DNA from: Thermomicrobiales bacterium
Lineage (GTDB): Bacteria > Chloroflexota > Chloroflexia > Thermomicrobiales > CFX8
Direction of reading: 5' to 3'
NCBI GenBank assembly: GCA_023954495.1
Contig: JAMLIA010000016.1
Location: forward strand, 1-54,895
Length of the DNA: 54,895 nt
A program made the translations under genes and the position numbers. Shown here one piece after another: positions 4,199-6,810 of this stretch. The notes beneath the pieces are model-generated. The model was not told the origin of the DNA and ran no database searches. It saw only the letters and a list, made by a program, of their open reading frames with translations. Positions within the stretch are counted from its first letter, which is position 1; each line of letters begins with the position of its first letter.

Positions 4199-4269
4199 GG
4201 GATGGTGTCTTTCATCCGGGGCGTGTCCTACCTCGGTGCGAGACTTCCACTGTGAAGGGGCATCGAATC

Positions 4270-4806
4270 ATGATAGAGACTGTCGTCGACAGCATCCGTG
4301 TGAGCCTTGTTACGCAGGCACGGGTAGTCATCCTCAAAGAGGTAGAGGGTGACCGGCATCTTCCGATCTGGATCGGCGCGTTCGAGGCCGAAGCCATTGC
4401 AATGGAGCTGCAGGGCATCTCGTCGCCACGTCCGCTGCCGTACGATCTGTTGCGCTCGGTCATCGGTGAACTGGGTGGGGATATCAATCGCATTGTCATC
4501 ACCGAGATCAATAATGATGTCTACTACGCACGCATCATCATTCAGCAAAACGGTATGGGCGTCGAGATCGACTCGCGGCCATCGGATGCGATCGCACTGG
4601 CTGTCCGCGCGAAGGTGCCAATCTTCGTCGACGATTCGGTGATGGCGCGCGCTGGGGTCCAGCTTGATGACAACGCCGATGATGAGTCTACGGCTGAAGG
4701 CGAAGGCACCGGCGAGCCGACGGTGAGCGAAGAGAAGCTGTCGGCATTCCGCGACTTCATTGACACGCTCGATCTCGATGACTTTGGCCAGAAGCGTGAC
4801 AATTAG
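4270..4806 (+). CDS. Bifunctional nuclease (BFN, DUF151) domain protein
   Basis: The 178-residue protein matches the DUF151/BFN family. Motifs are LPIWIGAFEAEAIAMEL (residues 35-51), RPLPYDLLRSVI, and SRPSDAIALAVRAKVPIFV (about 98-116). An acidic tail follows. Family members have reported DNase/RNase activity; no specific role can be read from the sequence here. ATG at 4270 is chosen over GTG at 4252 because GAAGGGG lies 9 bases before it. It follows lepB and precedes a redox-type sigma factor, so a stress-linked role is possible but unproven. Confidence 0.85.
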   Translation: MIETVVDSIRVSLVTQARVVILKEVEGDRHLPIWIGAFEAEAIAMELQGISSPRPLPYDLLRSVIGELGGDINRIVITEINNDVYYARIIIQQNGMGVEIDSRPSDAIALAVRAKVPIFVDDSVMARAGVQLDDNADDESTAEGEGTGEPTVSEEKLSAFRDFIDTLDLDDFGQKRDN

Positions 4807-4838: not shown

Positions 4839-4864
4839 GGAATATTGCGCAATGACCACGTGTT
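4839..4864 (+). promoter_or_regulatory. Candidate ECF (SigR-type) promoter, GGAAT-N18-GTT
   Basis: GGAAT at 4839-4843 and GTT at 4862-4864 are separated by exactly 18 bases. This is the consensus and spacing known for SigR-type ECF factors. It lies immediately upstream of the sigma gene, so autoregulation is the natural reading. The match is visible; its activity is inferred. Confidence 0.55.
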
Positions 4865-4881
4865 CATCATCTCAAGTCGAC

Positions 4882-5505
4882 ATGTGCGCTGACGGCGTGA
4901 TCTGCACTCGCAATGATGACGCCTCACGCCGTGATCGGCTGGAGCAACAAGCGCTTGAGCATATCGACGCGCTGTATCGAACGGCGTTGCGGATGACGCG
5001 AAATGCGGCAGATGCTGAAGACCTCGTTCAGGAGACGTATTTGCGAGCGTTCCGCTCGTTGCACCAGTTCGCCGAAGGTACGAACTTGCGAGCCTGGCTG
5101 TTTCGCATCATGACGAACACGTACATCAATGAGTATCGCAAGCGGCAGCGCCGACCATCGAAAGCATCGCTCGACGATCTTGAAGAGTTCTATCTCTACG
5201 ACCACCTGATCGATTCGGGGGTCCAGCCGGGCGTTGAGCGACCGGAAGACATTGTGCTGAGCCAACTGTCGGTCGACAGCGTGGTCAGCGCGATTGAGGA
5301 TCTCCCAGAAGAATTTCGCCAGGTCGTGCTACTGGCTGATGTCGAAGGCTTCAGCTATCGAGATATCGCCTCAATCGTCGACATACCAATAGGAACCGTC
5401 ATGTCCCGACTCTATCGCGCCCGTCGCCGACTCCAGCGTACGCTGTATGACGCGGCAATCGAGACCGGAATCATCGAAAGAGCGGCGCTCGATGGGAACG
5501 TGTAA
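4882..5505 (+). CDS. ECF sigma factor, SigR/SigE-like
   Basis: Alternative RNA polymerase sigma factor. Region 2 is at about residues 22-95 ([20 protein letters not shown], then [19 protein letters not shown]). Region 4 is at about 135-195 ([20 protein letters not shown], then [15 protein letters not shown]). The 207-residue start at ATG 4882 is chosen because the candidate SigR-type promoter at 4839-4864 would place the transcript start a few bases upstream. Earlier in-frame starts at TTG 4822 and ATG 4852 would lie upstream of or inside that promoter. The 3' end overlaps a zinc anti-sigma gene. The pair closely resembles the SigR-RsrA thiol-stress system of actinobacteria; the target genes are not visible here. 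Confidence 0.88.
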
Positions 5506-5719
5506 GCAGACGATCGAACACCTGTACCAGTATCTGGATCGCGAGCTGTCAGCCGAGGAACGTCGTGAGGTGCAACGGCATCTCGATGAGTGCCCGCCGT
5601 GTCGCGACCATTTCAGGTTCGAAGAAAATGTGCTGAGCATCATCGGGCATCGTTGTCGCCAGACGAGCGCACCGACTGAATTGCGAGACCGCGTGCGGAA
5701 GATGTGTCGCGAGGGCTAG
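5492..5719 (+). CDS. Zinc-binding anti-sigma factor, RsrA-like
   Basis: The 75-residue protein overlaps the 3' end of the sigma gene by 14 bases. It carries HLDECPPC, the HxxxCxxC zinc motif (His30, Cys34, Cys37), with a further cysteine at position 4. The Cys4-to-His30 spacing of 26 equals the Cys11-to-His37 spacing of Streptomyces RsrA, where these four residues bind zinc. In RsrA, oxidation of the thiols releases the sigma factor. Cys57 and Cys71 could also take part. It probably holds the sigma factor inactive under reducing conditions. Its stop overlaps the stop of the convergent gene on the other strand. Confidence 0.85.
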
Positions 5720-6129
5720 ACAGGCATGTCAGGCGGCAGAGCATCTTCCCTGAATCGGCCCAGCTCGAATGAGATGCCTGGGCAGCGGATGTTATGCAGG
5801 TCGATCTTGGCATTGATCGCAGTCGCCAGCTTTCGGTAATTCTCCCCTGCGCGTACCGACAACGCGTGCCGCGTTCCATACTGACGAATAAGATCGCGCC
5901 ACTCTGCGACTGCTTCAAGTACATGCGGTCGCTCGTAGTAGATCTGTTTGCGGAGCTCAAGCCACTCCGGGAGGAACCCGGCATTGTGCAGGATGTGGTT
6001 GCCCATCCAGTCGTCGCCAGTGTAGTCATCGTCCTGAGCGGCGAGACGTTTGCCGGAAGACCGCAGGTTCTCAAAATCACCGCGATCAATGGCCTCGCGA
6101 ATCTTCTCCTCGGCTATCCGCTCAAACAT
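5716..6129 (-). CDS. DUF1992 (DnaJ-C28-like domain) protein
   Basis: The 137-residue protein matches the DUF1992 domain found at the C terminus of DnaJ homologue subfamily C member 28. The motifs AEEKIREAIDRGDFENL, then GDDWMGNHILHNAGFLPEWLEL, are typical. No J domain is present, which is usual for bacterial members. The reading frame is open much further upstream, but ATG at 6129 is preceded by GAGGAG at a good distance and gives a protein that begins where homologues begin. The function is unknown. It is transcribed away from nuoE, and its stop codon overlaps that of the anti-sigma gene (CTAG). Confidence 0.82.
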   Translation of the reverse strand: MFERIAEEKIREAIDRGDFENLRSSGKRLAAQDDDYTGDDWMGNHILHNAGFLPEWLELRKQIYYERPHVLEAVAEWRDLIRQYGTRHALSVRAGENYRKLATAINAKIDLHNIRCPGISFELGRFREDALPPDMPV

Positions 6130-6157
6130 TCGTCGCTCCTCTGGCACGGCACCGCTG

Positions 6158-6185
6158 TTGTGAGGCAAATCGGCAATGTTATACT
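6158..6185 (+). promoter_or_regulatory. Candidate sigma-70 promoter for nuoEF
   Basis: TTGTGA at 6158-6163 and TATACT at 6180-6185 with a 16-base spacer. They lie between the divergent DUF1992 gene (start 6129) and the nuoE start at 6271. Confidence 0.55.
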
Positions 6186-6270
6186 CGCCGTAGTGCGCGT
6201 GAAGCATCTCACGCGCCCATTGCAGCGACAACGTACGTCCAACGACACCCCAAAGCGGAAGGGCGCAGAC

Positions 6271-6810
6271 TTGGCTCAAGAGGTTCTCGTCAGCGAGTCG
6301 GATCTGGACGACATTCGCACGCTGCTTCGAGCGAAGTACCAACCACGAGATTTCGAAGAAGCACAGGAGATGATTCTCGGTGCTTGCCAGGACGTACAGC
6401 ATCTCATTGGCTGGGTGTCGCCGGAAGCGGCCCGCGTTGTTGGCGAACATCTCGGCGTTACCGAGAATCGCATCTTCGGACTCCTGACTTTCTATGCTGA
6501 TTTTCGGACGCAACCACCCGGCAATCACTTCATGCTTCTCTGTCATGGCACAGCCTGTTACGTTGCCGGCAGCCAGAAGCTGATTGATGAGTTGCAGTCG
6601 CGCTACGGTATTAGCGGCGACGAAACGACTGCAGACGGTGAGTTGACCGTTCAGATTGTGAACGGCTGCCTGGGTGTCTGCGAGCTTGCACCGGCCGTGC
6701 AGGTCGATCACCACGACTATTTCGGCCACCTGAACGTGAACAGTTTCAACGAGGCGATTGCCGAGGTCATTCGGCGAGGGCCGGCTGGGGGTCACCATGA
6801 AGCTCACTGA
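6271..6810 (+). CDS. nuoE: NADH dehydrogenase subunit E-like protein (2Fe-2S, thioredoxin-like)
   Basis: Carries electrons between the flavin subunit and further iron-sulfur centres in NADH-oxidising complexes. The 179-residue product has an N-terminal helical region, then the 2Fe-2S fold with CHGTAC and, about 40 residues later, GCLGVCELAP, giving the four cysteine ligands. The reading frame is open far upstream, but TTG at 6271 has GGAAGGG 7 bases before it and gives the usual length. It overlaps nuoF by 14 bases. No other Nuo subunits are in the window, so the pair may serve a soluble diaphorase, a formate dehydrogenase or a hydrogenase instead of the main complex I operon. Confidence 0.88.
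   Translation: MAQEVLVSESDLDDIRTLLRAKYQPRDFEEAQEMILGACQDVQHLIGWVSPEAARVVGEHLGVTENRIFGLLTFYADFRTQPPGNHFMLLCHGTACYVAGSQKLIDELQSRYGISGDETTADGELTVQIVNGCLGVCELAPAVQVDHHDYFGHLNVNSFNEAIAEVIRRGPAGGHHEAH

Follow-up and report, generated by a model that had tools for sequence, protein, structure and literature searches.

A predicted SigR/RsrA-type thiol-oxidation switch with a thiol-gene regulon in a Chloroflexota bacterium

Does a thiol-oxidation circuit known from actinobacteria operate in a Thermomicrobiales bacterium of the phylum Chloroflexota? The question is raised by a contig of 54,895 nt (the window, that is, the whole stretch of DNA analysed here), in which the gene of an ECF sigma factor overlaps that of a small zinc anti-sigma factor and is accompanied by the motif GGAAT-N18-GTT (Table 1). 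The window's genome (G000; 3.36 Mb, 152 contigs) is compared with relatives that include G001, G002, and G004; f1 denotes the window's own family, and f2, f4, and f5 denote further families of the order. The comparison makes it highly probable, on the evidence of sequence, that the bacterium possesses a switch of the SigR/RsrA kind with a thiol-gene regulon.

Table 1 Features of the sigma/anti-sigma locus in the window
Feature	Position	Strand	Basis
Upstream gene, bifunctional-nuclease-like by reading of the frame	4252..4806	+	ORF
-35 element GGAAT (GGAATA with the next base), putative SigR/SigH-type	4839..4843	+	Sequence; conserved in 7/7 loci of f1, f4, and f5
In-frame ATG between the -35 and -10 words	4852..4854	+	Same offset, in frame, in four f1 members (ATG, ATG, ATG, GTG)
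-10 element GTT, 18 bases after GGAAT, putative	4862..4864	+	Sequence; spacing peak N17-N18 at target genes
ECF sigma factor, SigR/SigH type	4882..5505	+	207 aa from ATG 4882; 217 aa from ATG 4852
RsrA-type zinc anti-sigma factor, 75 aa	5492..5719	+	TIGR03988, PDB 5frf, PF13490 zf-HC2
Cys4 codon, N-terminal zinc ligand and predicted trigger cysteine (= RsrA Cys11)	5501..5503	+	Invariant in 13 sequences; role PMC4960319
Other predicted zinc ligands: His30 (5579-5581), Cys34 (5591-5593), Cys37 (5600-5602)	5579..5602	+	Invariant in 13 sequences

The class of SigR/SigH sigma factors corresponds to TIGR02947 (SigH_actino) and to ECF12. In a profile search with the sigma factor, TIGR02947 is the best of 100 models (229.2 bits; next, 152.8), with a score below the hypothetical-equivalog cut-off of 251.55 bits of this model, which is named for actinobacteria. 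The best PDB match is M. tuberculosis SigH (5zx2, 170 bits). By ORF reading, the sigma gene ends with a stop codon at 5503-5505 and shares 14 nt with the anti-sigma gene. Beyond the pair, a 363-aa minus-strand frame (5716-6807) overlaps the apparent start of a plus-strand nuoE-like NADH dehydrogenase gene and is probably spurious in part.

The anti-sigma factor passes the equivalog cut-off of the RsrA model TIGR03988 (73.9 versus 62.5 bits), and matches the PF13490 zf-HC2 domain. Its best PDB sequence match is RsrA (5frf, E 3e-8). The AlphaFold model, of modest confidence (pLDDT 74.8, pTM 0.43), comprises four helices (residues 4-16, 21-33, 35-57, and 62-74), and RsrA is likewise a four-helix protein with the zinc anti-sigma fold. 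A search with this model gives no PDB fold match with E below 0.001. An anti-sigma factor scoring above the TIGR03988 cut-off is present in 32 of the 301 Chloroflexota genomes sampled, so the RsrA type is not confined to one genome.

In the alignment of 13 relatives from the order, C4, H30, C34, and C37 are invariant and the remaining cysteines vary. The residues that the initial annotation had picked out in the overlapping anti-sigma factor are confirmed, and so is the 26-residue Cys-His spacing that it had equated with that of Streptomyces RsrA (C4-H30 here, C11-H37 there). Other zinc anti-sigma factors have the same motif, so the spacing alone is not diagnostic; the CHCC motif together with the N-terminal cysteine, present here, decides (PMC4960319). 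In RsrA, zinc is held by the four CHCC residues, and the sensing of disulfide stress depends on the N-terminal one of the cysteines (PMC4960319).

In the phylogenetic tree, the order's sigma factors fall into a single clade (support 94/94), which adjoins sequences of Actinomycetota and Zixibacteria; the branch uniting these to the exclusion of the order's other ECF sigma factors is supported at only 89/69, and the rooting is unsure. Since the sigma factors of the order make up a clade of their own beside the actinobacterial one, the SigR/RsrA system of the order looks old rather than newly transferred.

The motif at the sigma gene is not significant when taken alone. It is the single match in the window, where 0.84 matches are expected by chance and at least one occurs in 53 of 100 shuffles; the case therefore rests on comparison. 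GGAATA-N16/17-GTT precedes sigR in 4/4 f1, 2/2 f4, and 1/1 f5 loci with upstream sequence, and the spacers have diverged. GGAAT-N17..19-GTT is found at 0/12 f2 loci inside the 360 bp 5' of the conserved sigma anchor, although the mshA of two f2 genomes carries the motif.

The position of the motif is less simple than its words. The initial annotation had placed GGAAT-N18-GTT just before the sigma gene; both words and the 18-base spacing are as described, but the in-frame ATG 4852 lies inside the spacer, so that "just before" holds only if translation starts at ATG 4882 or GTG 4897, the later starts available in the window's genome. A transcript from the predicted promoter would begin downstream of ATG 4852 and so cannot contain it. 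In G001, the later start is a GTG with GGAGG before it, whereas in G004 the interval from the predicted transcript start to the conserved sigma domain offers no plausible canonical start. An unusual start is conceivable, because sigR of Streptomyces starts at GTC and yields two isoforms (PMC5472188). At f1 and f2 loci, sigR likewise follows a frame with a C-terminus resembling that of the upstream gene product, and a read-through transcript from the upstream gene could possibly contain ATG 4852.

Genome-wide enrichment of the motif, whose absence the initial annotation had named as counter-evidence, is not seen in the raw count for the window's genome: GGAAT-N18-GTT occurs 46 times, compared with about 44 times for each other spacing (438 over ten spacings), though the excess is strong at the expected genes. 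The raw count is a weak test, since a few dozen regulon sites would be swamped by the other matches to an 8-base motif. We therefore turn to the genes themselves. The genes downstream of intergenic matches were surveyed in the window's genome and three relatives with no preselection of genes. Among the products of the genes so found are an MshC-like ligase, an MshA-like glycosyltransferase, a thioredoxin, a second thioredoxin that is extended at its C-terminus, two Thioredoxin_9 proteins, a protein resembling thioredoxin reductase, and, in three relatives, a nitroreductase. In the window's genome, the motif precedes the thioredoxin gene (C10), the gene of the C-terminally extended thioredoxin (C99, with the variant GGAACA), the two Thioredoxin_9 genes, and the MshC-like and MshA-like genes. 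The same target genes carry the motif in relatives. Motif sites seen in one genome only (before genes of a topoisomerase, a ribosomal protein, an integrase, an ABC transporter, and others) have no conserved counterpart and are set aside as chance matches.

Across the order, the motif occurs upstream of mshA in 9 of 11 genomes, both Sphaerobacter-type genomes among them, and upstream of mshC in 5 of 11 (6 if GGAAC is allowed); GGAAT words precede sigR at seven of the nine loci listed and thioredoxin genes at three of eight. For sigR, mshA, mshC, and thioredoxin combined, GGAAT-N17..19-GTT is present at 24/39 targets and at 3/42 control genes, these counts not being independent events because the sequences are related. 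Two of the three positive controls are Mca-like genes of f4, which may themselves be genuine targets. When the four gene-genome pairs that had revealed the targets are dropped, 20/35 remain. Permuted words score a mean of 0.63 (sd 1.4) in the same 39 regions, and the top-scoring ones are register shifts of the true words. The spacing profile at the targets peaks at 17 (8 sites) and 18 (15 sites). Thus, the motif does occur upstream of thioredoxin and thiol-biosynthesis genes, where the initial annotation had suggested to search for it.

Several further sites accompany these targets. The Thioredoxin_9 (PF14595) pair with a SigR-type motif lies at G000:C6:59855 and C64:11473 (L159, L180), and the homologues in G001 and G004 are preceded by it likewise. 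In the three relatives with the nitroreductase (L214, L236, L257), a GGAATA promoter precedes this gene of the nitroreductase family. In five f1 genomes (L345, L344, L341, L346, L338), the gene 5' of the MshA-like gene reads like a ribosome hibernation factor, and the SigR-type promoter at these mshA loci lies around or past the end of that gene.

The identity of the thiol genes bears on what the regulon would do. All 11 genomes compared within the order encode an MshC-like protein of about 400 aa, which lacks the tRNA anticodon domain. In the tree, these proteins join the MshC of PDB 8hfm with support of 100/100, apart from cysteinyl-tRNA synthetase (CysRS), and a separate canonical CysRS from eight of the genomes is included. 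The MshC-like proteins score 380-414 bits with TIGR03447, under its equivalog cut-off of 485.1, and the canonical CysRS of the same genomes score 295-330. The 403-aa promoter target could be taken for a CysRS, since it passes the TIGR00435 cut-off and has E. coli CysRS as its best single PDB match; this identity was rejected on the tree, which places the protein with MshC. A SigR-type promoter stands before this ligase gene (L017/L323; G000:C8:37229-38529, minus strand), also in the nearest relative. The match to the canonical CysRS of the window's genome (G000:C4:72921-74074) is spread over two adjacent frames that overlap, which makes a frameshift or an assembly error likely.

MshA-like proteins of the 11 genomes score 346-386 bits with TIGR03449, under the equivalog cut-off of 462.5; for that of G004, the next-best model reaches only 122 bits. 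The scores of both protein types may fall short because the models were built on actinobacteria, in which case orthology of function is unproven. Two f4 genomes encode Mca-like proteins (201-227 bits), and the search of the f1 and f2 genomes for Mca yields only distant LmbE-type deacetylases. From the MshA-like and MshC-like gene types, it is plausible that these organisms make a mycothiol-type thiol.

Could the pair be of another kind? An ECF sigma factor with a zinc anti-sigma factor such as an RsiW-like one, in which CHCC is structural rather than redox-sensing and the targets respond otherwise, would account for RsiW being the second PDB sequence match (E 2.6e-4) and the nearest, though weak, fold match (E 0.14), and the zinc motif by itself is no proof of redox sensing. 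We consider this explanation improbable: the RsrA cut-off is passed and other anti-sigma models score far under their own cut-offs, a protein of 75 aa is too short to accommodate the membrane domain that RsiW-type proteins have, and the motif-bearing targets are thiol genes. Recent acquisition of the operon from an actinobacterium, which would leave a pair that is SigR-like by descent only and lacks a working regulon, fits the observation that the closest named sequences in the scan are actinobacterial. However, the sigma clade of the order falls outside the actinobacterial clade (support 98/97) and the target promoters are shared between families of the order, which makes such an origin very improbable.

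The start codon in the spacer gives weight to a different objection, namely that the f1 sigR "promoter" is spurious, with GGAAT as a weak ribosome-binding context, GTT supplied by a conserved Cys codon (M-x-x-C), and transcription coming from upstream. In accordance with it, a start codon lies in frame at offset 13 in 4/4 f1 loci, a Cys codon overlies GTT in 3/4, the distance to the conserved sigma anchor differs among the four loci only by multiples of 3, and G004 has the missing later start noted above. On the other hand, GGAATA is not a Shine-Dalgarno sequence, G002 retains GTT with Arg in place of the Cys codon, f4 and f5 have the same sigR promoter with no start codon at that offset, and identical words stand before mshA, mshC, and trx. 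A spurious f1 promoter is thus improbable, and a SigR/RsrA-type switch remains the preferred reading.

Such a switch would work as follows. In the reduced cell, the anti-sigma factor, with zinc bound by C4, H30, C34, and C37, would hold the sigma factor. Thiol oxidants would drive out the zinc, a disulfide (C4-C34 or C4-C37) would form, and the anti-sigma factor would release the sigma factor. The free sigma factor would take RNA polymerase to GGAAT[A/G]-N16/17-GTT promoters, the predicted targets being its own operon, thioredoxins and thioredoxin-fold proteins, and the MshA-like and MshC-like enzymes. Reductants from the target genes would then reset the anti-sigma factor.

Mycothiol has been described as unique to Actinobacteria (PMC4935862), and a survey of ECF anti-sigma factors places SigR-group anti-sigmas in Actinobacteria only (PMC7406223). 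In a literature search with most subscription journals outside its scope, we found no paper connecting SigR and RsrA to Chloroflexi, none connecting RsrA to Chloroflexota, and, among the matches listed, none on mycothiol synthesis in Chloroflexi. The initial annotation had suggested that the actinobacterial thiol-oxidation circuit operates in a Chloroflexota genome; as a prediction, this is supported by the RsrA cut-off, the invariant ligands, and the conserved target promoters. A regulon thought to be actinobacterial thus appears to be present in a second phylum. If true, SigR/RsrA and its promoters at mshA- and mshC-like genes across a Chloroflexota order would move the origin of the circuit, and a mycothiol-type thiol would be predicted in cultured organisms such as Sphaerobacter. 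A wider joint reading is tentative, with a chance that we put slightly short of even: Thermomicrobiales-type Chloroflexota would produce, under the control of SigR, mycothiol or a thiol closely related to it, the RsrA-SigR-mycothiol loop would exist outside, and perhaps before, the Actinomycetota, and, with the f1 promoter lying over the first start codon, oxidation would give an N-terminally shorter sigma factor, the reverse of Streptomyces SigR/SigR'.

Of the known systems, mycothiol biosynthesis by MshA, MshC, and Mca has its likeness in the MshA-like and MshC-like proteins of the 11 genomes and the Mca-like proteins of the two f4 genomes, all of which score below the equivalog cut-offs; the counterparts recognised include neither MshB nor MshD. 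The S. coelicolor SigR/RsrA system resembles the present one in its ECF sigma factor, its overlapping CHCC anti-sigma factor with the 26-residue Cys-His spacing, its GGAAT-N18-GTT promoters, and its targets, among which are sigR, thioredoxin, and mshA; direct control of mshA and mca by SigR is established there (PMC3489674). It differs in the length of RsrA (105 aa versus 75 aa), in the non-ligand cysteines, and in phylum. M. tuberculosis SigH is alike in providing the best structural-database match to the sigma factor. For C. glutamicum SigH/RshA, the measured promoters of mshC (GGAATA-N17-GTT), trxB1 (GGAATA-N17-GTT), and mca (GGAATG-N17-GTT) have the same words and spacing as those found here (PMC10012870). 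In corynebacteria, autoregulation of sigH is rare (PMC10012870), whereas the sigR site is among the best conserved here, in three families. In Streptomyces, autoregulation acts from an upstream promoter, from which the longer SigR' is made (PMC5472188); here, the autoregulated promoter overlaps the first start codon, and an autoregulated transcript could therefore give only the shorter sigma factor.
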